From Opitutus sp. ER46 (GTDB taxonomy: Bacteria > Verrucomicrobiota > Verrucomicrobiia > Opitutales > Opitutaceae): a DNA stretch of 64,000 nucleotides. Positions 14,238-38,168 of the stretch are shown here, one piece after another. The number at the start of each line of letters is the position of its first letter. Positions within the stretch are counted from its first letter, which is position 1. The stretch covers positions 434,001 through 498,000 of the forward strand of contig NZ_QAYX01000023.1 in assembly GCF_003054705.1 (NCBI RefSeq). The letters are read 5' to 3'. The notes beneath the pieces were generated by a model that was given only the letters and a program-made list of their open reading frames with translations, searched no databases and had not been told where the DNA came from. Both the position numbers and the translations under genes were made by a program.

Positions 14238-14277
14238 CGGGCGAAGAGGCGCAGGGGGGGCGCGAAGCCGGCGGGGC

Positions 14278-17200
14278 TCAGGCCGTCGCGGCGTCGCGGC
14301 GGGCGGAGCCATTTCCGGCCGGCCAGCGCCAGGCGGCGGCGAGGGAGGCCAGGAACAGCACGGCGCCGACGATCGAGAAGGCGACGTTGCGGTACCAGTG
14401 GCGCGGCACGCAGCGGAACTCGATGCGGTAGTCGCCGCCGGCGGGCAGGGCGACGCCCTTGAAGGCGTGGTTCAGCCGGAGGATGGGCTGTTTGCGGCCA
14501 TTGACGAAGACGCGGAAGTCACCCGCCCAGAACGTCTCGAGGAGCACGACGGCGCCGGGGCCGGGCGCGTGCACGTCGAAGGCCGTGGTGTTCTCGGTGA
14601 GTCGGTAATGCGTGGCCGGCACGACGCGGCGGCCTGCCCAGTCGCCCCAGAGCGCGGCGAGCGTGGGGGTGGCCGCGAGGTCCTTGCGGGCCATGGCGGC
14701 GAACGGCCGGCCGTCGCCGGTGCGGATCTTCTCGGCAAACTCCTCGGCGCGATCGTAGGGCGCGACGCGGTCGGTGAAGAACGCGCGCGGCCACACCGTG
14801 GGGCTCTCGTACACGTCGAGATCGGCGATCTTCGTCAGCTTGAGCGCGCGGCCCATCAGCCCCTGGTCGCTGTGGCGGTCGAGGTAGAAGCGGACGTTGA
14901 GCGCGTCGAAGAACGGGCGGGCGGCCGGGACGTTGGGCGGCTCGAGGTAGATGCGCCAGTCCCAGAGCCGCTGGGCGCCGCCGAGGAGGCCGGTGAGTTC
15001 GCGATACCACGGGTTCATGAGGGCGTCGGGCCCGTGGATCGTCTCGAGGCCGTAGACATCGTTCCAGCCCGGAAAGAACACGCCGCGGATGCCGTAGGCG
15101 CGGGCGGGTTCACGGGCGACGGCGGCCTGCATGAGCTGGACGGCCTCCGATTTGGCGTGGAAGTCGACGCGGGTGGTGGGGCGGAGGACGAAGCTCTCGA
15201 AACCAGCGGCCGGCGCGTGCAGCGCGTGGCGCCAGACAAGGGCGCCGGCGCTGGCGGCGAGGAGGAGCGTGAGCGCGGGAGTGAGCCGGCGCGTGACGCT
15301 GGCGTGCCGCACGCCGGCGGCGAACACGACGACGGCGAGGAGCAGCGACGCGAGATAGCCCCAGAGGAACGGAGCGACGGCCAGCGGGCGGCCGAGATCG
15401 TTCACCGTGAAGGCGGTCCCGTACATCGGGCGGTGCACCGCCTGGCGAAACGCGATCCAGGCGAAGACGATCGCGCCGAGCAGGAGGCCGGCGATGAGCA
15501 GATCGCCGCGGCCCTCGCGCGTCGGGAGCCGGCGCATGGCGGCGGCGAAGCCCACGCCCGCGAGGACCGACCAGAGGACGATGAGCACGCAGGAGAACGT
15601 GTTGTCGATGTGGGCGATGTTCGCGAGGAACGGCAGCCCCATGATCCACGCCGGCGGAACCAGGCCGAAGGCAAGGGCGAGCGGGAGCAGCGAGACGGCC
15701 GCGATGGCCATCACGCGCCGGGCGCCGAAGTGGGCGCGGAGCGTCGCGAGAAAATAGAGAAAGCCCAACAGGAGCAGGAAATTGAGCGACGGGCTGAAGG
15801 TCTGGTTGTTGGGCGCGATCGGCCGGTAGAAGGCCTCGTCGAACAGCCCGAGGATGATCGAAGGCTGGATCTGGTAGGCGGCGGCGGAGTTGTACGAGGT
15901 GTAGGCGTTGGCCAGTTCGTGCAGGAACGTGCCCCAGATCGGCGCGGTGAGGAGGACGAAGAGCAGGCCCGCCCACGCGGTGCCGGCGAGCTTGAGCAGG
16001 CGCTGGCGCCAGGGAGCGGCGTCGGCCAGCAGGACGGCGGCGCCCGCGAGATTCATCGCCAGCAGCAGCATGTAGGCCTCTTTGGCCGTGCCGCTGTTCA
16101 TCAGCGCGAGATTGGCGACGACGAGCCCGGCGGTCCAACCGGCGGCCCCGCGCACGCGGCGGGCGGCGGTGACGCGCAACCAGCAATAGAGCGGCCAGGG
16201 CGCGTAACAGAGACTGAAGAACGCCGGGTGGTTGAAGCGGTAGAGGAAGAAGCCGACGAAAGGCGCGGCCGCAGCGACGACGAGCGCAGGCAGCAGGGAG
16301 GTGCTGAAATGATCCCCGGCTTCGGTGGCCGGCGGCGCGCCGGCGGAGCCGGTCCTCGTCCCGTTCGTGCGCACCAGGGTGAACACGATCAGGCCGAGGC
16401 CGCTGGCGAAGATCCACTTCGCGAGCAGGAACTTGAGGTCCCACGCCCAGGAGCGGCCATTGGTGGCGAGGACGAGCAGGTGCAGTGGATCGCCAAACAT
16501 CGACTGGCCCTGGCCAAGCAGGGGAGTGCCGCCGGTGTTGTAGCGGTTCCAGAGCGGCACCTCGCCCTGGCGCAGCGCGCGCGCCTCGACCATCGAAAGC
16601 GGGATGTGCTGCCACATGATCGCGCCGAGGTCCGATCCCTTCACCTCGCCGGCGGTCGCGTCGCGGTAACCCGGCAACGTCGGAAACTCCTCGTACAGGA
16701 GGACCGTGCCCATGTTGGGCGAGACGTAGCTCTTGCCGAGGAACACGACCGGGTAGCTGCTCGCGGCGACCGCGAGGGCGGCGACGAGGCTGAGCGCGAG
16801 GACGGGCCGGGCGGCGAGCCGACGGGCGCGGCTCGCGAGGGCGTCACGGACGCGCGGGAGGCGATCGAGGGCGACCAACAACAACAGGAGAACGGCGAAG
16901 CAGGCGACGGCCGGACGCCAGCCGCCGACGACCAAGGCGAGGCGCGAAGGTTCGAGTTGGAGCGGGGGATCGAAGGCGACCGTGAGCTGGGGGTCGTTGG
17001 CGTTGGGCGCGGGGAAGATCTCGAGGCCATCGGCGGTCGGGCGAAGCTCGCGGATGGCGTAGGCGGGCTGGAGCGCGTTCAGCGCGACGTCACGCACCAC
17101 GCGGCCATCGACGCGGACGACCCGCAGCGACTTGAGCGTGACCGCGGTGTCGCCGTCGACCGGGTCGAAACGAAACTGACGGTAACGGCCGGGCGGGATA

Positions 17201-17439
17201 GGAAAGCGGTAGGTGGTGAAACCAGCTCCCGGCGTGAGCGCCTGGATGAGCGAACTCGCTTCGGTGAAACCCGTCCCGGCGTCGGGATAGATCTGGACGC
17301 GTCCCGCGGACGTGGAACGCAGCTGGACCTCGATGGCGAAGGCGTCGGGCGTCTCCTTGGCCGCGGGGCTGAACGGCACGGCGAAGAGGAGGGCGACGAA
17401 GGCAGCGACGAGCAGGGAGGCGGCCGAGAGGAACTTCAT
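14278..17439 (-). CDS. YfhO-like giant membrane protein
   Basis: The 1053-residue protein has an N-terminal membrane anchor, then an extracytoplasmic beta domain (about residues 30-160; AFAIEVQLRSTSAGRVQIYP then DAGTGFTEASSL), then a many-spanning core. SYPVVFLGKSYVSPN, GEVPLWNRYNTGGTPLLGQG and MFGDPLHLL form the YfhO-type pattern of a W/G/P-rich loop. A C-terminal periplasmic region ends with a last helix and a short basic tail. YfhO-family proteins take part in glycosylating wall or surface polymers and are grouped with GT-C enzymes. The N-terminal beta domain is shared with the next gene upstream (17475), 35 bases away, so the two are probably co-transcribed and act in the same process. 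The exact substrate cannot be told. Confidence 0.8.
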   Translation of the reverse strand: MKFLSAASLLVAAFVALLFAVPFSPAAKETPDAFAIEVQLRSTSAGRVQIYPDAGTGFTEASSLIQALTPGAGFTTYRFPIPPGRYRQFRFDPVDGDTAVTLKSLRVVRVDGRVVRDVALNALQPAYAIRELRPTADGLEIFPAPNANDPQLTVAFDPPLQLEPSRLALVVGGWRPAVACFAVLLLLLVALDRLPRVRDALASRARRLAARPVLALSLVAALAVAASSYPVVFLGKSYVSPNMGTVLLYEEFPTLPGYRDATAGEVKGSDLGAIMWQHIPLSMVEARALRQGEVPLWNRYNTGGTPLLGQGQSMFGDPLHLLVLATNGRSWAWDLKFLLAKWIFASGLGLIVFTLVRTNGTRTGSAGAPPATEAGDHFSTSLLPALVVAAAAPFVGFFLYRFNHPAFFSLCYAPWPLYCWLRVTAARRVRGAAGWTAGLVVANLALMNSGTAKEAYMLLLAMNLAGAAVLLADAAPWRQRLLKLAGTAWAGLLFVLLTAPIWGTFLHELANAYTSYNSAAAYQIQPSIILGLFDEAFYRPIAPNNQTFSPSLNFLLLLGFLYFLATLRAHFGARRVMAIAAVSLLPLALAFGLVPPAWIMGLPFLANIAHIDNTFSCVLIVLWSVLAGVGFAAAMRRLPTREGRGDLLIAGLLLGAIVFAWIAFRQAVHRPMYGTAFTVNDLGRPLAVAPFLWGYLASLLLAVVVFAAGVRHASVTRRLTPALTLLLAASAGALVWRHALHAPAAGFESFVLRPTTRVDFHAKSEAVQLMQAAVAREPARAYGIRGVFFPGWNDVYGLETIHGPDALMNPWYRELTGLLGGAQRLWDWRIYLEPPNVPAARPFFDALNVRFYLDRHSDQGLMGRALKLTKIADLDVYESPTVWPRAFFTDRVAPYDRAEEFAEKIRTGDGRPFAAMARKDLAATPTLAALWGDWAGRRVVPATHYRLTENTTAFDVHAPGPGAVVLLETFWAGDFRVFVNGRKQPILRLNHAFKGVALPAGGDYRIEFRCVPRHWYRNVAFSIVGAVLFLASLAAAWRWPAGNGSARRDAATA

Positions 17440-17474: not shown

Positions 17475-19868
17475 TCAGCGCCGCGTTTCGCCGGCCGGGA
17501 GCAGGCGACGCAGGAACCAGCCGGCGCCGAGGTCGATGTCAGTCGCCCGTACTTCGCGGGGCGGCGGACCGGGCGTGAACACGAGCCAGTCGAGATCGGC
17601 GGGCAGGGGTGTGCCGGCAGGCTGGTTGAGCAGAGGGACCAAGGTGCGCGCGTGGCGCGGACCGAACAGCGGGTACTCGTAGCCGGAGAGCGCGACGCCG
17701 ACGCGGGCGTGGAGCGGGACGCGCTCGGCGAAGGCGCGTTGGGCGGGATAGCTGGGGTGGAGGCCGGTCATCTGCTGCACGCGGTCCTGCCCCCAGAAGG
17801 CAGGGCGGCCCGCGTGCGGCAGGAAGAACGCGTTGTTGCGCAGCAGCGCGGCCGGGGCGACGTGGACGCAGGCGAGCGCGACGAATCCCGTGGCGGCGAG
17901 CCGGCCGCCGCGCCGCCAGCGACTGGCCCACCAGGCGAGTCCCGGCAGGAACAGCACCGCGCCGTACAGGAATTGGCGGCCACGCGTGAGATCGTACGGG
18001 CCGGCCAGGCACTGCGTCGCCAGAAAGACGATACCGCCGACGGCAAGCCACCGCAGGTTCCGCGCGCCGCAGGAGACGAGGAAGCCGGCGAGGAGGAGGA
18101 GGCCGAATGGGCCGAAATAGGAGAGGTTTTCGTCGGGGCGGATGAGGCGCGGGGACATGAAGCCCATGCGCGAGTTGTCGGTGCCGACGAGGTCGACGCC
18201 GTGCCGGGCCAGCGCGGACGCAACGCGCCCCTTGGCGTTGGCGAGCCGCGCGGCAAGGCGCTCGGTGGGAGGGGCCAGATCGAGCGTGCAGAAATCGAGG
18301 GCGAAACGCAGGGCGTTGCGTCCCCCGACCGCGAGCCGCGAGGCGATCGTGTGCTCTGCGCCGACGTGCAACGTGAGCGCCTCGGCCCCGAGCGGGTGAC
18401 CGTGGCGGCGGACGTTGCCGACGTAGCCGGCGGGCAGGATGAACACCAGCGCGGTGAGCCCGGTGACGGCGGCGACCCGCACGCGCCAGAGGGAAGGTCC
18501 GACCGCGAGGGCGAGGGCGGGCAGGAGCGTCAGCGCGCTCGCCTTGGTGCCGATGGCGAGCCCGAGCGCCAGCCCGGCGAGCGCGAGCCAGAGGATGCGC
18601 CGTTCGTCGCGGTAGCGACGCAGCAGGAAGAACGCGGCGGCGAGTTCCGCGGCGATCAGCAGATCGTTCTGGGCGGTCACCGCCTCCAGCCACGCGATGC
18701 TGAGGAGCATGGCCGTGAATCCGGCGAAGGCGGCGCCGGAAGGACGCAGCCGGTACGTCCGCGCGACCGCGTACACGGCGGCGCCGAGAACGAACCACGA
18801 CAGAAACTGCGGCCACCCGGCGACTACGTCGCTGCGGCCGCCGAGGGCGTACAAGCCGCTGAGCAGGACGGCGGAACCCTGGCCGAGTTGGTCCTGGGAG
18901 AAGTGGTTGCCGCCGTAAGCCGCGAGGCTGCCCTGCTGCAGGTAATAGCCGACGCGGGTCAGGTGGTAGAGCATCGCGTCGAAGCTGTTTGGGCTGGGGC
19001 CGAAGAGCAGGACGACGTTGGTGAGCGTGAGGAAGCCGACCAGCGCCAGCGCGAGCGTCAGGTAAGGACGGCTCCGGAGCAGCGTCTGCCAGCGTCGCGT
19101 TCGCAGGCCGCCACCGCCGCGGGCGACAGGCCGGCCAGCGAGGAGCACGCCCAGTCCGAGCCACAGCAGCCAGGCCCACGGCCGCGCCAGGACGCCGGCG
19201 GCGCCCAGCAGGTAACCGCCGGCGGTCCACCACGCCACGAGGGCGAGGAAGCCGAGGATGAGGCGCTCGGCGAGGTGACGTCCGCCGAGCCGCCAGCCAG
19301 CCTGGCGGCCGACGTGCGCGCTGGCGAGAACGGCGGCGACCAGTGCGAGCGCGGCGGTCACCGGATAGGGAATACGGGTGCGCGTTGCCGTGGGAATCTC
19401 GAGGGCCGGCGAGAACGAGGCGAGTAGTTGGGCGTCGTTGGCGGCGGTGGTCGGCTGGATCTCCAGTCCATCGACCCCGACACGCGCCGCGGCGATTTGC
19501 TGGAGCGGGGTGAGTTCCTCCGGCGCGAGACGACGCAGGGTTTCGCCGGACGGGGTGACGAAACGCGCCCGGTGGAGAACGACGCGCTCGGCGCCGTTGG
19601 TCGGATCAAGTCGCAGGCGGACGAGCCGGCCGGGCGGCAACGCGAACGAGTAGACCGCGGCCGCCACGCCGGGCCGCAGCGGCAGCCGCCGGGCATTGGC
19701 CTCGGAGAAGCCGGAGCCGAGATCGAAATAGGCCTCCACCTCACCGGGGCCGGAGGCGGTCAGGGTGAGTTCGAGCGTGTATGAAGCGGTGCTCTCCGTC
19801 GTGACTGGATTCAAGGCCGCGCTGACGAGTGCGACCACCAGCAGGAGTCCGATGCCGAAGAGCTTCAT
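17475..19868 (-). CDS. GT39-like giant membrane protein with N-terminal beta domain
   Basis: The 797-residue protein starts MKLFGIGLLLVVALVSAALN (anchor or signal). An extracytoplasmic beta domain (about residues 28-165) is homologous to that of the gene at 14278: compare VEAYFDLGSGFSEANA with VQIYPDAGTGFTEASS. After it comes a core with about a dozen helices. The loop after the core's early helices holds SPNSFDAMLYHLTRVGYYLQ and QGSLAAYGGNHF, as in ArnT/PMT-like proteins, where an acidic residue in this loop is catalytic; here D of FDAMLYH is the candidate. A short C-terminal soluble part ends in RRLLPAGETRR. It is the first gene of a three-gene minus-strand run. It is likely a lipid-linked-sugar-dependent transferase, by inference. 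Confidence 0.75.
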   Translation of the reverse strand: MKLFGIGLLLVVALVSAALNPVTTESTASYTLELTLTASGPGEVEAYFDLGSGFSEANARRLPLRPGVAAAVYSFALPPGRLVRLRLDPTNGAERVVLHRARFVTPSGETLRRLAPEELTPLQQIAAARVGVDGLEIQPTTAANDAQLLASFSPALEIPTATRTRIPYPVTAALALVAAVLASAHVGRQAGWRLGGRHLAERLILGFLALVAWWTAGGYLLGAAGVLARPWAWLLWLGLGVLLAGRPVARGGGGLRTRRWQTLLRSRPYLTLALALVGFLTLTNVVLLFGPSPNSFDAMLYHLTRVGYYLQQGSLAAYGGNHFSQDQLGQGSAVLLSGLYALGGRSDVVAGWPQFLSWFVLGAAVYAVARTYRLRPSGAAFAGFTAMLLSIAWLEAVTAQNDLLIAAELAAAFFLLRRYRDERRILWLALAGLALGLAIGTKASALTLLPALALAVGPSLWRVRVAAVTGLTALVFILPAGYVGNVRRHGHPLGAEALTLHVGAEHTIASRLAVGGRNALRFALDFCTLDLAPPTERLAARLANAKGRVASALARHGVDLVGTDNSRMGFMSPRLIRPDENLSYFGPFGLLLLAGFLVSCGARNLRWLAVGGIVFLATQCLAGPYDLTRGRQFLYGAVLFLPGLAWWASRWRRGGRLAATGFVALACVHVAPAALLRNNAFFLPHAGRPAFWGQDRVQQMTGLHPSYPAQRAFAERVPLHARVGVALSGYEYPLFGPRHARTLVPLLNQPAGTPLPADLDWLVFTPGPPPREVRATDIDLGAGWFLRRLLPAGETRR

Positions 19869-22098: not shown

Positions 22099-23085
22099 TC
22101 AGACCTCGGCAACGGCAAACAGGTGGTAGTCGAGCCGCGCGCCTTCACGCGTGCGCAGCGGCGTCTCGCCGTACGACTGGATCTCGACCGTGCGGAAATG
22201 TGGCCGGAGGAGTTCGCGGAGGCTGGCGCGGGAAAAGAAGTTGCGGTGGTCGCTCTCGAGCAGGTGCCACGGCACGGCGAGGTACGGGCGCAGGTAGGGC
22301 ACGAGCTCGAGGTTGGGCACGGAGATGAGCAGCCGGCCGCGAGTGACGCGTCGAGCCTCGGCGATGAACGACCAGGGATCGGTCGTATGCTCGAGCACCT
22401 CGATGCAGATCGCGGCGTCGAACTCGCCATTGGCGAACGGCAGGCGGCTCCCATCGACCTGGCGATGGGGAAGCCCGCGTTCAGCCATCGTGGCGCAGTC
22501 CTCGGCGCGAATCTCCACGCCCAGCCACTGGTAACCGGCGGCGATCAACGGCGGGCCATACGGACCGCGGCCGCAGCCGATGTCCAGAACGCGGGCGGAG
22601 GGTCGGGGCAGGTATCGGTTCAGCAGGGCGAGCAGGTCCGCGCTCGGCGCGTCCAGCGGAGGACCGCTGTGATACATGTGCTCCTGCCGGACGAGGTGCG
22701 GAAACGCGGGGTCGATGAGAATGCCCCAGTCGCCGGTGCGATAATCGCGGCCGGTGAGGGCGACCTCGCGGGTGAGAATGGTCTCGCGGCGGCCGTCGGC
22801 GAAGTGCGCCACGACGGCAAGGGCGAGCGTCTTCTCCGCGACCAAGGCGGTCGCGGTGCCGAGCAACGTGAAACCGGTGGGGGTGTCGACCGGGAGCCCG
22901 AGTGCCGTCGAGACGTCGGCGCGCGGATATAAAAGAGTGGTGCGGCCGAGGCTCAGCGTGCCGTTGGCGACGGCCTCGATTGCGATGGGCGCGGGCTCGG
23001 ACCCCGCGTGCACCCAGCCGCGGACGCACAACGTGAGGGGGTCGCAGATGTCGGTGGTCGACGGGAAGTCGAGGGCGGCGTGCAT
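22099..23085 (-). CDS. Class I methyltransferase with N-terminal beta domain
   Basis: The 328-residue protein has a soluble N-terminal domain (about residues 1-130; CDPLTLCVRGWVHAGSEPAP, IAIEAVANGT), similar in style to the beta domains attached to the glycosyltransferases and the radical SAM protein of this window. The methyltransferase follows: motif I VLDIGCGRGPYGPPLIAAGY, acidic residue in LGVEIR, then DAAICIEVLEHTTDPWSF and RGRLLISVPN. It starts at ATG 23085. The upstream 196 bases to the giant gene at 23282 hold no gene. Together with the downstream methyltransferase it forms a pair, probably co-transcribed, that may modify the same glycan. Confidence 0.83.
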   Translation of the reverse strand: MHAALDFPSTTDICDPLTLCVRGWVHAGSEPAPIAIEAVANGTLSLGRTTLLYPRADVSTALGLPVDTPTGFTLLGTATALVAEKTLALAVVAHFADGRRETILTREVALTGRDYRTGDWGILIDPAFPHLVRQEHMYHSGPPLDAPSADLLALLNRYLPRPSARVLDIGCGRGPYGPPLIAAGYQWLGVEIRAEDCATMAERGLPHRQVDGSRLPFANGEFDAAICIEVLEHTTDPWSFIAEARRVTRGRLLISVPNLELVPYLRPYLAVPWHLLESDHRNFFSRASLRELLRPHFRTVEIQSYGETPLRTREGARLDYHLFAVAEV

Positions 23086-23281: not shown

Positions 23282-26200
23282 CTACGCGACGGATTTCGGT
23301 GCGGTGGTTTCACCGTCGCGCCGCTGGTACGCGACGAGGAGGAGCGCGCCGGCAAAGAGTATGTAACTGGCGCCCGCAAGCAGCGGCGCGTGGGCCGTGA
23401 GCCGCCAGGTGCGATAGCTGAGCGGCGAGACCCAGACGGGTTCGCTGAAGCCGACCCAGCGGGCGGGGGTGGCCACGTGCGCCACCAGAATGGCTGGTTC
23501 GGAGGGGCAGCGCACATAGGCGGCACGCCAGTGGGCGCCGGCGGGCTTGCTCGGAGCGATGCGGGCGAGAAGCGCGCCGGTCCGGGCCGAGACAAGCTCG
23601 AAGGTGGTACCCGACTGGCCAACATCGCCGGCCGTCTCGATCTTCCACCACCCGTGGTCAGCCGAAAGTGCCGGACTCCGCCAGGTTTGGCCCGCGGTGA
23701 CCACCCGTGCTGCGTCGGGCCAGAGCGTCGCGAGGGTGGGAACCGCGGCGAGCGAGCCGTCGTTCCGCAACCCCGGAACCTCGATCGGAGCGCGGACGCT
23801 GGCTGGCATGATGCGGCGGATCGTCGGATTCCGCAGCAGGCGGATGAGCCAGTCGGTGTGCGGGAAGGGCAGCTTGGGTTCGCGCGCGAATGCCTCCTGA
23901 TCGTCGGTGCGCAGGAACATCCGCACGTTGTGGACGTAGTCGCGGTGATCGGCGGCACGCTGGGGCAGTTCGGTTTGGAAGGTGGAGCGCGTAGCCACCG
24001 CGACGGCGGCGACGACCAGGATGCTCCAGGTCGTGGTGAGGGCGAAGCGTGAGGCGCGGCGCGTGTCGGGTGCGGCCGACCGTGCCAGCAGGGCCAGGGC
24101 GAAGGCGTTCAACACCACTCCGACGGCGAACACGTCGCCGTATCTGATCCCGGGAAGGCTGCTCCCGCCGCCGCGGGCGAAACTGACCGCGGCCACCTGG
24201 GCGAGGACCCAGAGCCCGCCGGCGACGACGAGGTCCGCCGTCACGCTGGCGCCGTGGCGCGGCTCGCGCGTGAACGGCGAGATCAGACGGCGGGTGGCGA
24301 GCACGAACCACGGCAGCCACAGCAGCGGGGCGAGCCACGGGAAACCGTAGAGCGGCCAGGAGAGGCAGCGCAGGGCGTACACGGCGGCCTCGGCGAAGGA
24401 GTGGGCGTGCAAGGGCGTGTGCCAGGGCGCCTGGGGTCGGAACCACCAGCCGATGGCGGCGAGGACAACGGCGGTAGCGATCGTCGCCAGGTTGCTCGCG
24501 CGACCAAGTCGGCGGGGACGTGCGGCGTTTGTCGGCTGACGCAGGCGCAGCGCGGCGAGCAGCGCGATCGGCGCGGTGACGAGCAGGCCGGAGCCCATGC
24601 TGACACCGGCTACGACCGCGGCGGCAACGCCGCCGCACCACCGCCACGAACCGGCGGGAGCTCCGAGCACGCCGCCGAGCGCGAGCAGGGTGAAGCCGAT
24701 AAGGAAGTAGAACTGCGACTGGAAGCCGAGCAGCACGTTCTCCCACGCGATGGGCGGGGCGGTGACGAGGACGATGGTGCCCACGACGGCCAGCGCCCAG
24801 CCGGTCGGCAGCCGGCGCAACGCCCAGGCCGCGAGGCCGGCGGCGATGAGGGCGTGGAGGGCTGCGCTCACGGCGCACTGCACGCGGGCATCCCACTGGT
24901 CGGCGCCGAGCCGGAGCAGTCCGAGGTTCAGCGCCAGCGTGGGCGCGATGCGATGCTCGCTGTGGGGAAGGAAGAGCGGTGCCCAGAACTCGTGGCGCTC
25001 AAACCACGGCGCGTAGCAGAGCTCTCCCTCCTTGGCCCACTGGTCCCAAACCGGCAGGTCGGTGCCATAGCGCCCGATTACCGCGAGCTTGGTGCACCAC
25101 ACGCAGAAGAAAACGGCCACAACGAGAAACGTGCGGCGGCGGCGCGCCGGACCGGAGATGGCCGGGGGTACATCGTCGTCCCGCCCGACCATGCGCGGGG
25201 CGGCGTCGGACCGGTGCAACCGGGCCAAGCGAATGAACGCGGCGATCGCGGCGAGCACGCCGATGACGGTGAGCCAGAGCGCGTGCCGGACCACGAGAAC
25301 CGCGAGGTAAGAAAGCGTCGCAACCTCCACCGGCGCGCTGAAGGCGAGCCACCGATGGGCGTCGCGGTCGTGGGCGACGATGACGAATGGTTGCGCCGGC
25401 ACGCGGACGTAGGCGGCGCGCCAGGGACCCGTGCCGGACGCGGGACCAACCGTCGCGAGGAGCTTGCCGCTGGCGGCATCGAGGAGCTCGAGACTTACGC
25501 CCGGCTCGCCGAGCTGGCCGGCGATGTCGAACCGCAACCAGGCGTGGGCGGACGGTGCGATCGGCTGGCTGCGCCACTCGCCGATCCCGGCGAGGCCGGC
25601 AGTGGAGAAGGAACCCCACGTGACGCGCGCAGGCAGCGGAGGCGTGTCCGGGGCCAAGCCGTGGCCGGGCCGTGGAGCGGGCGTGCGCGGTGTGACCCAG
25701 TTGCGGGTGAAGCCCTCGGCCCTGGCGGGTTCGAGCGGCACGGCGGGACGCACGCTCGCCGGGAGGAGGGGGCGGACGCCCGGCACGGCCAAGCGCTCAA
25801 CCAAGGCCTCCGCGGTGATGTACGGGATCGGGTCGCTGAGCTGGGCGGCGTCACCGGTAACCAGATACGAACGCAGGTGCGCCTCGCCGCCGGCGTAGTA
25901 CTGCTTCGCGTGGGGCAGGGGATCCGCGAGATTGTAGGTGAGCCGCCACTGCAGGCCCGCGGCGAGCAGGAGTGCCCAGAGGACCACGACGGTGATCCGC
26001 AGCGCGGACCGCCAGGCGCCGACGTGGGCTGCCGGCGAGGTGGCGAGTGCGGGGCCGGCCGGGCGCGGCCACACCAGGTGCAGCGCGGCGAGGACGTTGA
26101 CGCCGAGCCCGAAGATTAGCGTGCCGGCATAGCGGGAGGCGGGATAGGCGCCGCCGGCGCCGCGGGCGTAGGCGGTGGCGAGGACTTGGCCAAAGGCCCA

Positions 26201-27133
26201 GCCGCCGAGTGCGACGATGGCCCAGGTGATCGCCGCTGGCGCCGGCCGGCCGGCGCGGACGCGGAGCGAGCGGACGAGGGTCAGAAGCGTGAGAACCAGC
26301 CACGGGGTCCAGAGGAACGGCCCGGCCCAGTCTTGCTCGTGCAGCGGCCACTCGAGATTGCGCAGGAGCGTGACGACGAAGTCCCGGGCATTCGTGGCCA
26401 CGAGCGACGCGTGATAATCGACCGTGATCCGTGTGGCCTCGCCGAAGGCAGTGATGAGCCCGGTGACGAGCAGGGTTGGCCATGCCGAACGGAAGGAGGT
26501 CTCGCGGCAGAGTGCGCGCCACAGGACGACGCCGAACACGGTGGTCGCGGCGAGGTAGCCGGAGCCCATCGAACCGAGGACAAGGATCGCGGCGGCGAGA
26601 CCGGCCCACCAACGGCGGCTGGCCGGACGGGAAAACGGCAGGAGCGCGATCGCGATCAGCGAAAGGCCAATGAGCCAGTACTGCTGGGAATGAAAACCGC
26701 TGAGCAGGTTCTGGTCGGAAAGCGGCAGGCCGAAGAGCAGCGCGAGGCCGGCAAAGGCGAAAGGTTGCAGGCGCGGGGCAATGGCACGGCGGGCGAGCAG
26801 CCAAAGGCCGACGGCGATGCCGGCGTGAAGGAGGGCGTTGACGACGGATTGGAGACGCGCGTCCCACTGTCCATTGACCAAGGTGAGGGCAAGATTCTGG
26901 GCCTTGGTCAGAATCACGCGGTGTTCGTTATGAGCCGCGAAGAGGTTGCGGACGAAGTGATCGCCGGAGAACCAGGGGCCGATCGCGTGGACGCCCTCGG
27001 CGTCCCACTGGTCCCAATTGGGCATGTCGGAACCGTAGCGGTCGTAGGCGGCCCAGTTGAGTCCGAGGATGATGGCCAGGAGCGCGCCGACCAACGTGCC
27101 CCGGAGAAGGCGGGAAGGGCGGGGACGGCTCAC
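23282..27133 (-). CDS. Giant membrane protein made of two homologous halves
   Basis: The 1283-residue protein is an internal duplication. Near residue 33 it reads YGSDMPNWDQWDAEGV and near residue 687 YGTDLPVWDQWAKEGE. Each is followed by the same order of features: W-F loop, NEHR or SEHR with I, NL.L, QWDAR and a helix-rich core. Each half ends with an extracytoplasmic beta domain carrying WRAAYVR, P..P, AH, RW, FS.PV and LSY, then a closing helix. Each half is about 650 residues, near the usual size of a single GT-C enzyme. The start is a GTG at 27133 overlapping the stop of the 1321-residue glycosyltransferase gene by four bases, so translation is probably coupled. A GT-C-like function is inferred; no defined family recognised. 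Confidence 0.78.
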   Translation of the reverse strand: MSRPRPSRLLRGTLVGALLAIILGLNWAAYDRYGSDMPNWDQWDAEGVHAIGPWFSGDHFVRNLFAAHNEHRVILTKAQNLALTLVNGQWDARLQSVVNALLHAGIAVGLWLLARRAIAPRLQPFAFAGLALLFGLPLSDQNLLSGFHSQQYWLIGLSLIAIALLPFSRPASRRWWAGLAAAILVLGSMGSGYLAATTVFGVVLWRALCRETSFRSAWPTLLVTGLITAFGEATRITVDYHASLVATNARDFVVTLLRNLEWPLHEQDWAGPFLWTPWLVLTLLTLVRSLRVRAGRPAPAAITWAIVALGGWAFGQVLATAYARGAGGAYPASRYAGTLIFGLGVNVLAALHLVWPRPAGPALATSPAAHVGAWRSALRITVVVLWALLLAAGLQWRLTYNLADPLPHAKQYYAGGEAHLRSYLVTGDAAQLSDPIPYITAEALVERLAVPGVRPLLPASVRPAVPLEPARAEGFTRNWVTPRTPAPRPGHGLAPDTPPLPARVTWGSFSTAGLAGIGEWRSQPIAPSAHAWLRFDIAGQLGEPGVSLELLDAASGKLLATVGPASGTGPWRAAYVRVPAQPFVIVAHDRDAHRWLAFSAPVEVATLSYLAVLVVRHALWLTVIGVLAAIAAFIRLARLHRSDAAPRMVGRDDDVPPAISGPARRRRTFLVVAVFFCVWCTKLAVIGRYGTDLPVWDQWAKEGELCYAPWFERHEFWAPLFLPHSEHRIAPTLALNLGLLRLGADQWDARVQCAVSAALHALIAAGLAAWALRRLPTGWALAVVGTIVLVTAPPIAWENVLLGFQSQFYFLIGFTLLALGGVLGAPAGSWRWCGGVAAAVVAGVSMGSGLLVTAPIALLAALRLRQPTNAARPRRLGRASNLATIATAVVLAAIGWWFRPQAPWHTPLHAHSFAEAAVYALRCLSWPLYGFPWLAPLLWLPWFVLATRRLISPFTREPRHGASVTADLVVAGGLWVLAQVAAVSFARGGGSSLPGIRYGDVFAVGVVLNAFALALLARSAAPDTRRASRFALTTTWSILVVAAVAVATRSTFQTELPQRAADHRDYVHNVRMFLRTDDQEAFAREPKLPFPHTDWLIRLLRNPTIRRIMPASVRAPIEVPGLRNDGSLAAVPTLATLWPDAARVVTAGQTWRSPALSADHGWWKIETAGDVGQSGTTFELVSARTGALLARIAPSKPAGAHWRAAYVRCPSEPAILVAHVATPARWVGFSEPVWVSPLSYRTWRLTAHAPLLAGASYILFAGALLLVAYQRRDGETTAPKSVA

Positions 27134-30100
27134 GCGCGCGGCGGCCAGGCGAGGGCCCAGCCGAGAAGGTCGAGGGTGAGGTTCGGATTGTACGCGGGGT
27201 CGCGATCGAGCTGGGGGCCCCAGGTGCGGCGCATGTGTTCGATCTCCGCGGTGAAGCGGGCCTGCTTGGCGGGGTCGTGGTCACTGCCGCGCGACGCGGA
27301 TTCGTGGTGGTACAACTCGGCGAAGGGCGTCCAGAGATTGCGGTACCCGGCGGCGCGGATGCGCAGACAAAGGTCGATGTCGTTGAAGGCCACCGCGAGG
27401 TGCTCGGCGTCGAACCCGCCGACGCGGGCGAAAACCTCGCGACGCACGGCGAGGCACGCGGCGGTGACCGCGCTGTAGTTCTGGGCGAGTCGCGCGCGGT
27501 TCATGTAGCCGTCAGTGCCGTGCCGGTAGTGCAGGAACGCGTGGTTCGCGACGCCCCCGAGGCCCAGGACGACGCCGGCGTGCTGGATGGTGTTGTTGGG
27601 GTAGTAGAGCATCGCGCCCACGGCCCCGATCTCCGGGCGCAGGGCGTGGCTGGCCAGCTCGTCGAGCCAGCGCCCCGTAATGACCTCGATATCGTTGTTG
27701 AGGAAGCACAGGACCTCGCCGCGGGCCGCGCGGACGGCGTGGTTGTTGATGGCCGAGAAGTTGAACGGGGCGTCGAAGTCGACGGTCCGGACGTTGTCCT
27801 CGCGCCGGAGTTCCTCGAAGAACGCAAGCGTCTCGGGGTCGTCGGAACGGTTGTTCACCACGATGACCTCGAAGTTTGGATACTCGGTGCGCGCGAGGAT
27901 GGAGCCGACGCACGTCCGGAGCAGCGCGCAGGCGTTGCGCGTCGGGATGATGATCGAGACGAGCGGGGCGGGATGGGGCAGCGGGTAGACGATCTGCCAG
28001 TGATCGCCCGGGACGGGGCGGACCTCGGCGGCGATGCCGCGGCGGGCAAAGTGGTCGCAGAGGGCGCGCCGGGCGGCGTCAACGGAGTAGTTCTTTGCGC
28101 TGACCGTGACGGCGGTGGAGCCGCTGATCGCGCGCCAGTGGTAGAGCACCTTGGGCAGGTGGCGGACGCGCTCGGGCGTGGTGCGGTCGACGACGCGCAG
28201 GGCGAGATCCCAGTCCTGGCTGCCCTCGTAGCCGACGCGGAAGCCGCCGACCTCGCGGACGAGCGCGGTGCGGTAGACGGAAAGGTGCGACAGACAGTTC
28301 TGGCCGAGGAGCAGGTCGGGCAGGAAGTCGGGTTTGAAATACGGATCCCGGCGCCGGCCGTCCTCGTCGATCTTGTCCTCGTCGGAGAAGACAAGGTCGG
28401 TTTCCGGCTGGGCGGCGAGGAGGAGTGCGACCTCGGCCAGGGCGTCGGACGGCAGTTCGTCGTCGTGGTCGAGCAGGGCGACGAATTCACCGCGGACGAG
28501 TTCCAAGGCGGAGTTGGACGCGGCGGAGATATGGCCGTTCCTCGGGCGGAACGTGACGCGGATGCGGGAATCCGCGGCCTGGAGCCGCTCGAGGAGCGGC
28601 CGCACGTGGGCGGCGGTGGAGGCGTCGTCGGCGATGCAGAGCTCCCAGTTCTCGTACACCTGGGCGCGGACGGACTCGACGGCGCGCTCGAGCCAGCGCT
28701 CGGGCGCGTTGTGGACCGGCATGAGGACCGAGAGGAGCGGCCGCGCGGTCGCGGGCAGCGCCGCGAGGCGTTCCCGCAGCGCGGCGGCCTTGTCCGGCGT
28801 GACGGTGCTGAAGCACTCGACCCACGAGGCGTAGTCGTGCACGGCGCGCGGCCGGCTCGTGGTGTGGAGGGTGCCTTCGCGCGCAACCTGCCAGGAGCCG
28901 TCGTCGGCCTGCACCTCGACGCGGAGCGCGTGGTCGGTGTCGGCGGCGAGCCGGTAGTGAAATTCGAACCCGCAGCCCGCGGCGGAGGCGGCGAGCCCGT
29001 GGGCCTGGGCGACATCCTCCCGGCTCTGGCCGGTGGTGCCGGGGAGCGGCGTGCCGTCGAGCAGCACGCGGATGTTTGGAGTGGGCCGTTGGCCGGCGCC
29101 GAGGCACCAGCCGGAGATAACGCCCGAGGCAGGAGCGGCGTCCCAGAAGGCGGGGCGGTCCACCGCGAGGCGAAACTCTGGCGCGGGCGCGGCGGCGGAG
29201 GCGTCCTCCTTGGGCGCGCGGCGGAACGGATCGACCAACTGACGGCGCAGGGCGCGGGCGGGAGCGGTGGCCTGCCAGGACCAGGAGGCCTGCATGCGGC
29301 GCAGTTTGTCCTCGAGCGTGCGGATGCGCTGCTCGCGATCGGCAACATCGCCAGCCAGGGCCTGCTCGCGGACCGCCGCTTCGCGGATCTCATCCGCGTG
29401 ACGGCCCTCGGCGGCGGCGGTGGCGGCGCGGGCCTGTTCGACGGCGGACTTCTGTACGACGATCTCCCAATGACGGCGGCGCAGGTCAGCGCGGGCGAGC
29501 GCGAGGAGATGCCGTTCCCGGTCGAGGTCGGCACGATGCTGTTGCTCGCGGGCAGCGATCTCGGCGCGATGTTGGTGTTCGCGGCTGTCGTAGGCCTGCT
29601 GCAGTGTCGCCAGTTCAGCCTGATGCTTCAGCTGGTTGGCGCGGAGCTGATGCTCGAGTTGGGGAACGCGCGGGTTGCGCACCGAAGCCACGAGGTGGGG
29701 CCACAGGCGGCGCCACGCCGGATCGGTCTGCGCCAGCACGGGCGCAAGCGTGATGACGGCGCTGGCGAACTCGCCTTGGCGTCGCGCGCGGCTGGTGGCC
29801 AGGCGGCGGTAGTCAAAGAGCACGTCGGGGACCGTCTCGACGCGTCCGCCATGGCGGAGCAGTTGCAGGAGAAACTGCCAGTCCTCGTCGGCAAGTCGTT
29901 CGGCGGAGAAGCCGCCCTGCTCCAGAAACACGGAGCGGCGGACGAGAAAGTTGGTGTCGCCGAGGACGTTCTCGATGAGCCCAAGTTCGACGCAGCCGCC
30001 CAGCGGCGAAAGCACGTAGCCGGGATCAGCCGGGTCGACCGGATCGGAGAACGTGGCGAACGCGCACGTCACGCAATCAGCCCCGGTCATGGCCAGGGCG

Positions 30101-31095
30101 CGCGCCAGGGTGGCGACCATTTCGGGCCGGAACCGGTTGTCGGTGTCGCAGAACAGGACGGCGTCGCCGGTGGCGTGTTCGACGAGGCGGTTGCGGGCGG
30201 CGGCGGGGCCGGCGTTCGGCTGATGCAGGAAGCGCCAGCCCAGGGTCGCGTAGCGCTTCTCCGCCTCCGCGTAGGCGCGCAGGGCGGCGGGCGACTTCGA
30301 GCCGTCGTCCATCAGAATCACCTCGTGCGGCGGCAGAGTCTGCGCAGCGAGCGAGGCGAGCGCGTCCGCGAGGAAGTCGGGTTGCTCGTAATAGGGCAGG
30401 CAGACGCTGACGCGCGGCAATGGCCGCGGCGCGGGATGCGCGGGGGCGGGGACCAGGTAGGGTCGCCACGCCGTGGAGTCCGAGAGTGTTTCGAGCTGGC
30501 GGGCCGATGCGGCCGAGACGAGGCCGGCGTCGACCACGCGGGCGAGCACCGCCCGGTCGGAGAAGATTACCGCGTCGGCGGCGCTGAGGGCCCGTCGCTC
30601 GAGATAGTCATGGACGATCTCCTCGCGTCCGCCGAGGGGCAGGTCGTCCTGGGCGAGCCTTGCGAGCTCGCGCGGCAGGTTGGACACGAGGACGACAAAG
30701 CGGGTCGACGCGAGGGCGCCGCCGGTCTGGCGACGCAGGAGCGCGATCGCCGCGAGGGCGGGCGAGCCGAGCACGATGCACACCTCGGGCGTCAGTTCGC
30801 CGAGCAGGCGGGCGGCGTGGTGGGCGCGGGTGTGGCTCTCGGCCTGGGGAAAAAGGGGAACCGCGAACGCCGGCGGCGTTTCGCGCAGCGCCACGTAGCC
30901 CAAGTCACGGGAACGGGCGGCTGCCGGCAGACCGGCGGGCGTGCCTTCCAACGCAAAATTGGCGTCGATGATCGTGACGTCCTCCCCACCGCTCGCGAAC
31001 GCCGAGGCGAGCGCCCACGGATCGGCGGCGGCCGCCGCGCGGGCGGGCTCGGTCGGAGGCAGGAATTGGTCAACGAGAAGGCAAATCCGGCTCAT
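27130..31095 (-). CDS. Multidomain glycosyltransferase: GT-B-like half, three GT2 domains, coiled coil
   Basis: The 1321-residue protein reads in order: a Rossmann-like N-terminal domain (about 1-210; ICLLVDQFLPPTEPA), GT2 domain A (about 225-470; VSVCLPYYEQPDFLADALAS, DTDNRFRPEM), a coiled coil (about 477-615, rich in E, R, Q and H), a beta domain (about 638-745; SGVISGWCLGAG), GT2 domain B (about 780-1000; LLSVLMPVHNAPERWLERAV, LLDHDDELP) and GT2 domain C (about 1040-1290; LVSIIIPTRNACALLRTCV, FLNNDIEVI). Domains B and C resemble tandem GT2 pairs of O-antigen clusters. One chain could add several sugars in series in the cytoplasm. It overlaps the GT2 gene before it and the giant membrane gene after it by four bases each. 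The linkage and sugars are not predictable. Confidence 0.88.
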   Translation of the reverse strand: MSRICLLVDQFLPPTEPARAAAAADPWALASAFASGGEDVTIIDANFALEGTPAGLPAAARSRDLGYVALRETPPAFAVPLFPQAESHTRAHHAARLLGELTPEVCIVLGSPALAAIALLRRQTGGALASTRFVVLVSNLPRELARLAQDDLPLGGREEIVHDYLERRALSAADAVIFSDRAVLARVVDAGLVSAASARQLETLSDSTAWRPYLVPAPAHPAPRPLPRVSVCLPYYEQPDFLADALASLAAQTLPPHEVILMDDGSKSPAALRAYAEAEKRYATLGWRFLHQPNAGPAAARNRLVEHATGDAVLFCDTDNRFRPEMVATLARALAMTGADCVTCAFATFSDPVDPADPGYVLSPLGGCVELGLIENVLGDTNFLVRRSVFLEQGGFSAERLADEDWQFLLQLLRHGGRVETVPDVLFDYRRLATSRARRQGEFASAVITLAPVLAQTDPAWRRLWPHLVASVRNPRVPQLEHQLRANQLKHQAELATLQQAYDSREHQHRAEIAAREQQHRADLDRERHLLALARADLRRRHWEIVVQKSAVEQARAATAAAEGRHADEIREAAVREQALAGDVADREQRIRTLEDKLRRMQASWSWQATAPARALRRQLVDPFRRAPKEDASAAAPAPEFRLAVDRPAFWDAAPASGVISGWCLGAGQRPTPNIRVLLDGTPLPGTTGQSREDVAQAHGLAASAAGCGFEFHYRLAADTDHALRVEVQADDGSWQVAREGTLHTTSRPRAVHDYASWVECFSTVTPDKAAALRERLAALPATARPLLSVLMPVHNAPERWLERAVESVRAQVYENWELCIADDASTAAHVRPLLERLQAADSRIRVTFRPRNGHISAASNSALELVRGEFVALLDHDDELPSDALAEVALLLAAQPETDLVFSDEDKIDEDGRRRDPYFKPDFLPDLLLGQNCLSHLSVYRTALVREVGGFRVGYEGSQDWDLALRVVDRTTPERVRHLPKVLYHWRAISGSTAVTVSAKNYSVDAARRALCDHFARRGIAAEVRPVPGDHWQIVYPLPHPAPLVSIIIPTRNACALLRTCVGSILARTEYPNFEVIVVNNRSDDPETLAFFEELRREDNVRTVDFDAPFNFSAINNHAVRAARGEVLCFLNNDIEVITGRWLDELASHALRPEIGAVGAMLYYPNNTIQHAGVVLGLGGVANHAFLHYRHGTDGYMNRARLAQNYSAVTAACLAVRREVFARVGGFDAEHLAVAFNDIDLCLRIRAAGYRNLWTPFAELYHHESASRGSDHDPAKQARFTAEIEHMRRTWGPQLDRDPAYNPNLTLDLLGWALAWPPRA

Positions 31096-32478: not shown

Positions 32479-33198
32479 TCACAGCTTGAAGCCGGCGTCG
32501 CTCGCGTCCTTGGCAAACATCTTGACGGTGTCGAGGGACAGCGCGGTCAGGTCCATGCCAAGCATCTTGGAGGCCTTGGCGAGAATGTCGTGCGGGACGG
32601 TGACGATGTCGCAGCCGGACTCCTCCGCCTGGAGAAGATTGAGGACCTCGCGCACGCTGGCCCACAGCAGTTCGGCCTTGGGCTGGGCGTGGAGGAGGGC
32701 GCGGGACGCGCGCATGATCGGTTGCGGATCGACGCCGGCGTCGGCGATGCGGCCGGCAAAGACGGAGACGACGGAAGGCACCGCGGGGTTGAGCGACTCG
32801 GCGACGCCGGCGACCTGCTTGAGCGTGAGGATGGCGGTGACGTTGAGCTTAACGCCTTCCTGGCCGAGCTCCTTGATCAGGGGGAGGCAGGACTCGCCGC
32901 GCGAGTTGGTGATCGGGATCTTGGTGTAGACGTTGTTGGCCCAGCCCTTGATCTTGAGCGCCTGGCGCCGCATCTCGGAGAGATCGTCGGTGAAGACCTC
33001 GAGGGAGATCGGCTTGGCGGTGACCGTCTGGAGGATGTCCTTGGCGAACGCCTCGTAGTCCTTGATCCCGGCCTTCTTCATCAGCGTCGGGTTGGTGGTC
33101 AGGCCCTTAATGTAGGGCTTGGCGTAGAGGTCGAGAATGCCGGCCTTGTCTGCGCCATCGGCGTAGATCTGGATTTTGAGGTCGCTCAGCGATTTCAT
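32479..33198 (-). CDS. Transaldolase family protein (short, TalC/FSA-like size)
   Basis: The 239-residue protein matches the small transaldolase/fructose-6-phosphate aldolase group: IQIYADGADKAGILDLY, GLTTNPTLMKKAG, and the Schiff-base lysine in VYTKIPIT. A long GVKLNVTAILTLKQV segment and a VVSVFAGRIADAGVDP segment follow as in the family. The enzyme exchanges dihydroxyacetone units between sugar phosphates, linking fructose 6-phosphate and erythrose 4-phosphate with sedoheptulose 7-phosphate. It lies next to gmhB, gmhA, hddC and hddA, whose starting compound is sedoheptulose 7-phosphate, so it probably serves precursor supply for heptose synthesis. It is cytoplasmic. An aldolase activity on another sugar phosphate is the alternative. 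Confidence 0.87.
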   Translation of the reverse strand: MKSLSDLKIQIYADGADKAGILDLYAKPYIKGLTTNPTLMKKAGIKDYEAFAKDILQTVTAKPISLEVFTDDLSEMRRQALKIKGWANNVYTKIPITNSRGESCLPLIKELGQEGVKLNVTAILTLKQVAGVAESLNPAVPSVVSVFAGRIADAGVDPQPIMRASRALLHAQPKAELLWASVREVLNLLQAEESGCDIVTVPHDILAKASKMLGMDLTALSLDTVKMFAKDASDAGFKL

Positions 33199-33287
33199 GG
33201 GTGTGGATTACGTCGACTTTTGCAAAAAAGGGGAGAGTGCCGCCGAGCGTGCGGCAAGGTGAAAGTTTAGGCGTGGCGCTGGCGCCG

Positions 33288-33890
33288 TCAGCCCCGGCTG
33301 GCGGCGGTCTCGCGTAGGATCACGGCGGCGGCTGCGGAGAAGGATTTGACGATGAAGTCGGGTGCCGCGCGCAACTCCTCGGCATAGCCAAAATCGATGA
33401 AGACGGTGCGCACTCCCGCGCGCTGCCCGCAGTCGATGTCGCGCCAGCGGTCGCCGACCATCCAGGACCGCGTCAGGTCGAGATTCAACGCGCCGGCGGC
33501 GTCGTGCAGCATGCCGGGCAGGGGTTTGCGCCGCCGATCGGGCGGGGCGGTTTTGTCGAGACCGGGGGCGTAGCAAACTTCGACGCGGGAAATGGCTGGG
33601 ACGAGTTGCCGGAGGCGGGCGTGCATGGACTCGACGACGGCCTGCGACTGGGTGCCGCGGCCGACGTCAGGCTGGTTGGTGGCCACCACGAGCACGAATC
33701 CGGCGGCGGCGAGTTGCGCGCAGGCGTCGGGAACGCCGGGAAAAAGTTCGAACTGGGCGAGCGTCTGCGGCGGGTAGGGTTTGCCCTCGCGGACGACCTG
33801 ACGGTTGAGCGTGCCGTCGCGGTCGAGGAAGACGGCGGGAAGGAGCTCCGGCCGAGCGCCGGCAGGAGAGGAAGGAAGGGCGGACGGCAT
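33288..33890 (-). CDS. gmhB: HAD phosphatase, D-glycero-D-manno-heptose 1,7-bisphosphate 7-phosphatase-like
   Basis: The 200-residue HAD-family protein has the nucleophile motif AVFLDRDGTLNRQV, a second motif VVATNQPDVGRG and the metal-binding motif MVGDRWRDIDCGQRAG. Size and motifs match GmhB/HisB-N phosphatases. In the region where GmhB proteins usually carry a zinc site (pattern C-H-C-C before RKP) it reads VCYAPGLDKTAPPDRRRKP, so only one cysteine remains and the zinc site seems lost. The neighbours (hddA, hddC, gmhA) support removal of the 7-phosphate from heptose 1,7-bisphosphate in the GDP-heptose route. Start ATG 33890. The function is strongly supported by context, less by the altered loop. 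Confidence 0.85.
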   Translation of the reverse strand: MPSALPSSPAGARPELLPAVFLDRDGTLNRQVVREGKPYPPQTLAQFELFPGVPDACAQLAAAGFVLVVATNQPDVGRGTQSQAVVESMHARLRQLVPAISRVEVCYAPGLDKTAPPDRRRKPLPGMLHDAAGALNLDLTRSWMVGDRWRDIDCGQRAGVRTVFIDFGYAEELRAAPDFIVKSFSAAAAVILRETAASRG

Positions 33891-33939
33891 CGGCGGGACG
33901 CCGGCGCGGGAAGGCCCGCGCCGGGAGGCGAGGCGAAGA

Positions 33940-34548
33940 TTACTTCTTCGCGGGAGCGACGCTCTCCCACTTGGTCTGGTTCACCTTCAGGTCGGGATGG
34001 GAGACAAAGAGGTGCCACAGCACGCCCTGGAAGGCCTCGCTGTGCGGGGTGATGTTGTTCGGGTTGACGACCGGCACGACCACGCAGGCGTCGGCGACCT
34101 TGGCGGTGTAGCCGCCGTCCTTGCCGACGATGCCGATCACGCGGGCGCCGATCTCCTTGGCGAACTGGAGGGCGGTGACGAGATTGGGCGAGACGTTCTT
34201 CTCGAGGTTGCCGCCGCCGACGGAGAGGACGAAGAGGGCGTCCTTGGCGTTGAGGCGCGAGCCGCGGAGCCACTCGACGAACACGCTGGCCCAGCCCTCG
34301 TCATTGGTGCGGGCGGTGAGTTCGGAAACGTTGTCGGTCGGCGCATAGCACTCGAGGCCGCCGATCTTGCGGAAGTCGTTCACGGCGTGCGAGGCGTTGG
34401 CCGCACTGCCGCCGACACCCAGGATGAAGAGCCGGCCGCCGCGCTCGCGAACGGCGCGGAGCTCGCGGACGCATTTTTCGCAATCGTCCGGGTTCAGTTT
34501 ACCGATGATCTCGGCGGTTTCCTTCAGGTGTTGGACGGAGTAGCTCAT
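33940..34548 (-). CDS. gmhA: SIS-domain sedoheptulose 7-phosphate isomerase-like
   Basis: The 202-residue protein starts at ATG 34548 (MSYSVQHLKETAE); the long open frame above it belongs to the shadow of hddC. A SIS fold is shown by RLFILGVGGSAANASHAVND, the SVGGG loop with NLEKNV in place of the usual SxSGNS, and GIVGKDGGYTAKVAD. The C-terminal segment ITPHSEAFQGVLWHLFVS corresponds to the conserved ending of GmhA. GmhA converts sedoheptulose 7-phosphate to heptose 7-phosphate, the first committed step. Assignment rests on the neighbours gmhB, hddC and hddA. The altered phosphate-binding loop means the reaction should be tested. Length is normal for the family. Confidence 0.82.
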   Translation of the reverse strand: MSYSVQHLKETAEIIGKLNPDDCEKCVRELRAVRERGGRLFILGVGGSAANASHAVNDFRKIGGLECYAPTDNVSELTARTNDEGWASVFVEWLRGSRLNAKDALFVLSVGGGNLEKNVSPNLVTALQFAKEIGARVIGIVGKDGGYTAKVADACVVVPVVNPNNITPHSEAFQGVLWHLFVSHPDLKVNQTKWESVAPAKK

Positions 34549-34706
34549 GGAAGAAGAGACAGAGTGATGGGTCGGGGTGACGGGATTGAGCGTTCTGCGC
34601 GAACGAGGGCAAGCGACGAATATTTGTGCGCATCCGCGCCGGGGTGCGCAGGCGTGACGGCAACCCCTTGGACAACCCAGCGGTCGAAACCCGCCGGGTG
34701 CGCCGG

Positions 34707-35420
34707 TTACGGCGCGCGTTGCCGCAAGAGCACGTCGAGTTCCTGGAGTCCGTCGTGAGAGCCGATTTCGTAGAACCGCTGGCGGATCTCGTAACCCGCG
34801 AGCTGCCGGCGGGGGACGAGGGACTTCTGGACTTCGGCGAGATCGACGACGGCATCGCGGGCGAAGCCGTCGAACGCCGCCGCGCGGAAGACGCCGAGAC
34901 CGTAGTCGATGTGGTGCATCTGCGGCAGGCGGTTCTTCTTGTCGTAGACCTTGATCGCGCCGCCCTCGAACCAGACGTTGCTCGTGTCGTAGCGGCCGTG
35001 GTTTTCGTACACGGTCATGAGCCCGAGCTGGCCCGACTGGAGGAAGAAGTTGCCGACGGCCTGGTAATCGACCGGCAGGTAGCTGTCGCCGTAGAGGACG
35101 TAAAACGCGTCGCCGAGCTTGGGCAGGGCGGCGATGAGGGCGCCGCCGGTGCCGAGGAGCTTGGGGCCGTCGAAGGCGTACTCGATCTTCACGCCCCAGG
35201 TGGAGCCATCGCCGTACTGCTCGACGATCTTCTCGCCGAGGTAGCCGACGCACAGCACGAGCCGCGTGAGCCCGGCGGCCTTGAGGAGCCGGATCTGATG
35301 GGAGAAGAACGGCTCGCCGGCCACCTCGACGAGGAGCTTCGGCACCTTCTCGGTGATGGGCCGGAGGCGGGTGGCGAGGCCACCGGCGAGGATGGCGACG
35401 GGCAGGTCGGAGGCGGTCAT
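34707..35420 (-). CDS. hddC: Heptose 1-phosphate nucleotidyltransferase
   Basis: The 237-residue protein is a sugar nucleotidyltransferase: AILAGGLATRLRPITEKVPK (the G-G-x-x-T-R-L and K motif), VAGEPFFSHQI, LVLCVGYLGEKI, LGTGGALIAALPKL and VLYGDSYLPVDY. These match D-glycero-alpha-D-manno-heptose 1-phosphate guanylyltransferases (HddC). The product would be GDP-D-glycero-alpha-D-manno-heptose, the donor for surface polysaccharides in Gram-negative bacteria and S-layer glycans in Gram-positive ones. It lies 12 bases after hddA. Guanylyl specificity cannot be shown from the sequence alone; an ADP- or CDP- product would be the alternative. Start ATG 35420. Confidence 0.88.
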   Translation of the reverse strand: MTASDLPVAILAGGLATRLRPITEKVPKLLVEVAGEPFFSHQIRLLKAAGLTRLVLCVGYLGEKIVEQYGDGSTWGVKIEYAFDGPKLLGTGGALIAALPKLGDAFYVLYGDSYLPVDYQAVGNFFLQSGQLGLMTVYENHGRYDTSNVWFEGGAIKVYDKKNRLPQMHHIDYGLGVFRAAAFDGFARDAVVDLAEVQKSLVPRRQLAGYEIRQRFYEIGSHDGLQELDVLLRQRAP

Positions 35421-35432
35421 CCGGGGCGCGAG

Positions 35433-37962: not shown

Positions 37963-38168
37963 TCCGTGATGAATATGCAAGCAGCGCATGCGAATGCCCA
38001 AACGGTGGCAAGTGACGTTTTGCCGGGGGCGGCCGGCGATGGGCGTGGCGCAGTGGAGTGACGACTTGCCTGCAGTAATGGGTTGAAGGAGGCCGGCTCC
38101 GCTTCTTCCGTCGGGAGGCGGCCGAGTCGTAGGATGATGCGCCCGGCCAGCCTGCTACCCAGGTGTCC

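Follow-up and report, generated by a model that had tools for sequence, protein, structure and literature searches.

The reverse strand of the DNA analysed here (64,000 nucleotides from Opitutus sp. ER46, hereafter the window) carries at 23282..27133 a single uninterrupted frame of 1283 amino acids, which raises the question of whether one gene can encode two whole enzymes and how these came to share a chain. The frame opens with a GTG codon that overlaps the stop codon of an upstream GT2 gene. An earlier note had read the product as a GT-C-like protein with an internal tandem duplication of the entire enzyme, offering two successive transfers or a fused heterodimer as what it might encode.

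By BLASTP with composition correction the first half of the protein (aa 1-650) aligned to the second (aa 651-1283) with 33% identity across 624 aa (E 7.6e-68). The Smith-Waterman score of this pair was 736, which is 46 standard deviations (z 46) over a block-shuffled null (70.6 +/- 14.4, maximum 121); unrelated polytopic proteins from the same window, used as a control, scored 52-77, i.e. at null level. The homology thus spans the whole of each half and is not confined to short shared motifs. Signature motifs recur in the same order in both halves, as had been noticed: YGSDMPNWDQW at 33 and YGTDLPVWDQW at 689, EHRV at 70 and EHRI at 726, QWDAR at 89 and 746, and WRAAYV at 571 and 1202. The reported spacing of about 655 residues holds for the N-terminal motifs (656-657) but not for the C-terminal motif, where it is 631, and the EHRI assigned to both halves occurs in the second only.

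Each half was modelled with AlphaFold2 on alignments of 76 (half A) and 66 (half B) natural sequences, giving a pLDDT of 94.5 and pTM of 0.94 for half A and 92.7 and 0.93 for half B. In the models, half A (aa 1-636; 25226..27133, reverse strand) consists of a GT-C membrane domain, a periplasmic CBM-like beta domain and a last TM helix, and half B (aa 669-1283; 23285..25129, reverse strand) repeats this complete set. Between them lies a short basic linker (aa 637-668; 25130..25225, reverse strand), predicted from hydropathy and charge to be cytoplasmic; similar short linkers are found in other fused relatives. Foldseek returned Mycobacterium smegmatis EmbB as the top match of half A (E 6.4e-8), covering the membrane part and the C-terminal carbohydrate-binding module, while the top matches of half B, AftA (E 7e-3) and ArnT (E 2e-2), were weaker. 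In VIA-align the top rows for both halves were GT-C enzymes (Z 12-15, 325-390 residues, rmsd about 5), among them oligosaccharyltransferases, PMTs, ArnT, ALG and Aft/Emb enzymes. The CBM-like beta domain of half A (aa 460-606; 25316..25756, reverse strand) superposed on the EmbC C-terminal domain 3pty with Z 11.6 and rmsd 2.8 (130 residues aligned, 21% identity), and that of half B (aa 1114-1238; 23420..23794, reverse strand) with Z 8.5 and rmsd 3.1 (121 aligned). Both models are polytopic, and in each TM1 is followed by a first periplasmic loop that is helical. We consider it nearly certain from these models that both halves adopt the GT-C fold. The fold matches bear out the GT-C-like identity first proposed, the halves do not belong to unrelated families, and the 624-aa self-alignment and the confident models of each half agree with the reading of two whole enzymes in one chain.

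At the level of sequence the protein stands apart from the families that its fold recalls. The full 1283-aa protein had no Pfam, NCBIfam or PDB-sequence match. Pfam searches with 40 family members gave chance-level matches only (best DUF6057, E 0.015) and no Emb model at E 0.1, and the family profile, run against PDB sequences, had a single chance match (E 1.4) and no Emb chain at E 10. PF14896 had no match in the Opitutus sp. ER46 genome, whereas the control Corynebacterium glutamicum did match. The EmbB alignment begins at EmbB residue 255, which corresponds to model residue 4, leaving the halves without room for the Emb N-terminal region, which comprises the first helices and a periplasmic domain. 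Since the sequence tests fail and this region is absent, GT53 membership is not supported. Neither the double protein nor the 40 members had a Pfam PMT or MIR match; Pmt1-Pmt2 carry MIR where the double protein has its CBM-like C-terminal module. Judged by sequence, it is a member of neither the Emb nor the PMT family. This points to a GT-C family with an Emb-like architecture for which Pfam and NCBIfam hold no model; a profile scan found it to be frequent in Opitutaceae, with sporadic members in Pseudomonadota, Chlorobiota and other groups.

The search for homologues of one half only showed that the usual form of the family is a single protein of about 620 aa. In the tree the A halves sit among such single proteins in a 19-row clade (support 100/99) and the B halves, again with singles, in another clade of 10 rows (support 100/100). 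AU tests on 39 rows under the LG+G4 model rejected a tree in which both halves of this protein are forced together (a cost of 261 log-likelihood units, p-AU 1.0e-5), and likewise a single clade of all A and B halves without singles (p-AU 3e-6). Compared with relatives from other species, half A has 51% and half B 50-58% identity, against 33% between the two halves themselves. If the entire enzyme had recently been duplicated within this gene, similarity along the full length of the halves would follow, and such an event is known from another genus (below), but with halves closer to relatives in other species than to each other, and with sister halves rejected, we regard it as very unlikely here. 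Given the separate, well-supported clades and the rejected sister-halves tree, the gene is, with high confidence, a fusion of two old paralogues in the order A-B. The tandem duplication that had been proposed for this gene is thus not upheld, and the fused heterodimer named beside it fits better.

The same A-B order is fused in eight species of the family, in the genomes of Opitutus sp. ER46 (G000), G026, G006, G171, G183, G091, G146 and G129; the fused genes of G091, G146 and G129 are cut by contig ends, and in G183 the contig ends inside B. One might ask whether two adjacent genes were merged by assembly or gene calling, as the relatives are mostly metagenome assemblies and one of them has the two genes nearly abutting. 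The frame is, however, single and stop-free, its third-position GC is coding-like in each half (0.86, 0.87) and the fused architecture recurs across the eight genomes, which makes an artefact exceedingly improbable. Unfused homologues occur within each half's own clade, and an unfused neighbouring pair exists in G176 (L075), where A stops at 6016 and the B frame has its first ATG at 6029; the unfused B there also bears an additional domain at its N-terminus, for which further membrane proteins of the cluster have homologues. G140 and G123 have A and B on opposite strands with about 2.5 kb between them, an interval that in G140 holds an SNF2 helicase gene. Standalone A genes without B are common and a few B genes lie apart from A (G163, G217, G072), so pairing is not obligatory. 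A single clade of A halves was also rejected by the AU test (p 5e-6), which implies that A and B fused on several occasions or that B has repeatedly been lost.

Other arrangements were seen in the family. One doubled protein in another genus (G106; L127:1871-5815, also L036:4991-8935) arose independently and has sister halves that are 52% identical, a true internal duplication. Neighbouring single-copy pairs are found in L128 and L144. Taken with the fusions, this duplication and these pairs indicate that pairing recurs in the family. In L037, L040, L041 and L052-L057, ORFs of 1130-1390 aa join one domain copy, or its membrane part, to a different hydrophobic and possibly GT-C-like region; Pfam gave no match for four of these long ORFs (L037, L040, L041, L052). 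A reverse-strand gene at L042:2701-5832 appears to fuse a flavin amine-oxidase domain (aa 12-454) to one GT-C copy (aa 448-1018), and on the forward strand, in L084:2849-5893, a partial C-terminal family module precedes a full A-type copy, an arrangement that may be a broken tandem copy. The Opitutus sp. ER46 genome itself holds a distant single paralogue (G000:C17:18070-19251, L002; 30% identity), a 520-aa frame with the membrane part only.

Are both halves likely to be active? Across 76 aligned domains, 38 columns are conserved in at least 93%, and 34 of the 38 are identical in both halves. Residues kept in both include D41/D697, E46/E702, E70/E726, H71/H727, R72/R728, H241/H905, R324/R987, R334/R997 and Y335/Y998. 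The comparison of catalytic acids between halves that the earlier note had called for thus finds both D41/D697 and E70/E726 retained. The candidate catalytic aspartates, D41 of the WDQW motif (27011..27013, reverse strand) and D697 (25043..25045, reverse strand), are invariant in the 76 aligned domains and are placed just after TM1 in the models, D41 being assigned to the first periplasmic loop. The glutamates E70, in the HNEHR motif (26924..26926, reverse strand), and E726 (24956..24958, reverse strand) are also invariant. EmbB has the acid pair D285/E313, of which D285 is required for activity (PMC7305291; PMC7341804). From its position and from the 29 residues that separate it from E70, which resembles the spacing of D285 and E313, we infer that D41 may be the equivalent of D285.

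One difference between the halves concerns the RYxD aspartate, kept by 93% of the aligned domains and present in half B as D1000, which is replaced by glycine (G337) in half A; the half A site could be weakened by this change. The loss, together with the long end branches of both halves in the tree, would fit a protein in which only one half is catalytic and the other a regulatory or scaffold pseudo-enzyme. Against this, half A retains D41, E70, H71, R72, R324, R334 and Y335, and the A halves of other fused proteins keep the RYxD aspartate. Between fused relatives dN/dS is 0.18-0.32 for A and for B, a similar purifying selection on both, so neither half is decaying in these relatives. We therefore think a pseudo-enzyme half improbable, and favour two working sites.

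The double gene is surrounded by genes for GT2, methyltransferase, radical SAM and heptose-type sugar functions and by further large membrane proteins, and parts of this cluster travel with the fused gene. The upstream multidomain GT2 glycosyltransferase (27130..31095, reverse strand; Pfam PF00535) shares 51% identity with a GT2 protein encoded close to the fused gene of G026, and a methyltransferase of the cluster (22099..23085, reverse strand) has 42% identity to one that abuts the fused gene in that genome. A membrane protein of about 1050 aa (14278..17439, reverse strand) has counterparts of 55-57% identity in G026, G006 and G171, where they come immediately downstream of the fused gene. 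The cluster fits a role in surface-glycan assembly. We looked among the genes near the fused gene for a clue to the donor, and they did not point to any particular polyprenyl-phosphate sugar. The products encoded at window positions 32479-36416 resemble a heptose sugar set: a transaldolase, an HddA-like GHMP kinase and a protein that has a GmhA-like sugar isomerase domain, with the NCBIfam matches of the GmhA-like and HddA-like proteins falling below the cut-off. Large membrane proteins with long hydrophilic C-terminal tails are encoded on opposite strands at 11451-14312 and 38163-41027 of the window, the latter with a weak PMT match (E 0.0004). An N-terminal domain of about 160 aa is common to several membrane proteins of these clusters that otherwise differ (in the window, 14278-17439 and 17475-19868) and is found also in the unfused B gene L185:261-2720.

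Several known systems offer comparisons. The Emb arabinosyltransferases (GT53; EmbA, EmbB, EmbC) share with the double protein the order of a GT-C domain and, C-terminal to it, a periplasmic CBM, and the acid pair of EmbB is spaced like D41 and E70 of half A. The paralogues EmbA and EmbB assemble into a heterodimer (PMC7341804, PMC7305291). The double protein differs in its lack of a sequence-level match to Emb and of a counterpart of the Emb N-terminal region, in holding both partners in one polypeptide, and in its host, which belongs to the Verrucomicrobiota and not the Actinobacteria. The protein O-mannosyltransferases Pmt1-Pmt2 (GT39) share the GT-C fold (Z 13-15) and are likewise a heterodimer of paralogues, but the Pmt chains are separate, eukaryotic and without a sequence match to the double protein; they have MIR in place of a CBM-like C-terminal module (PMC7759382). 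GT136 ORF12 of Citrobacter, a bacterial GT-C enzyme that carries a CBM and uses a polyprenyl-phosphate donor to decorate a surface polysaccharide (PMC11127046), is likened here by description rather than by sequence and has one GT-C to the two of the double protein. ArnT (GT83) and AftA/AftB have the same bacterial periplasmic GT-C fold, but they are single enzymes with no detectable sequence similarity to it. With a limited set of search phrases we found no literature description of a tandem, fused or double GT-C protein, which is weak evidence of novelty; a broader search brought up unrelated papers only.

How might the two halves work together? We suggest, with somewhat better than even confidence, that the gene product is a pseudo-heterodimer whose halves are joined covalently, with two active sites in the periplasm and a joint mechanism. 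The gene arose when neighbouring paralogues that had diverged long before, A followed by B, were fused. Hydropathy and the models suggest that the N- and C-termini of each half lie in the cytoplasm, and with a short basic linker between the halves fusion would thus carry no topological cost. In each half the first periplasmic loop of the polytopic GT-C domain would bear D41 or D697 and E70 or E726 with the adjoining H/R, and the periplasmic CBM-like module may bind the acceptor glycan. Probably both active sites are in use, each adding a sugar from a polyprenyl-phosphate donor, and the halves, packed side by side as a fixed 1:1 pair, would act on the same surface glycan. By analogy, the protein would most likely work like a linked EmbA-EmbB or Pmt1-Pmt2 pair, and the analysis suggests that A and B normally work as a pair on a cell-surface glycan.

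The conserved residues of both halves would also suit two independent transferases that act in succession and add different sugars in turn, with no Emb-like dimer. Their 33% identity leaves room for different specificities, and the membrane domain is found also in the long ORFs with other extra domains, which indicates that fusion is frequent in the family. Fold relatives of known structure, on the other hand, often dimerise (EmbA-EmbB, EmbC2, Pmt1-Pmt2, Pmt4), favouring pairing, and we hold successive independent transferases to be possible though rather unlikely. Returning to the joined pair, it is conceivable, if speculative and on present grounds doubtful, that the protein represents an undescribed Emb-like GT-C family outside Actinobacteria, in which an A/B heterodimer of ancient origin has become fixed as a single chain and the two sites alternate on one growing glycan, forming a single-polypeptide machine for the addition of disaccharides. 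GT-C enzymes such as Emb and PMT are often dimeric, with the contribution of the second protomer an unsettled point. Where nature has fused A to B, and related bacteria keep A and B unfused, each active site could be switched off separately at a fixed 1:1 stoichiometry.
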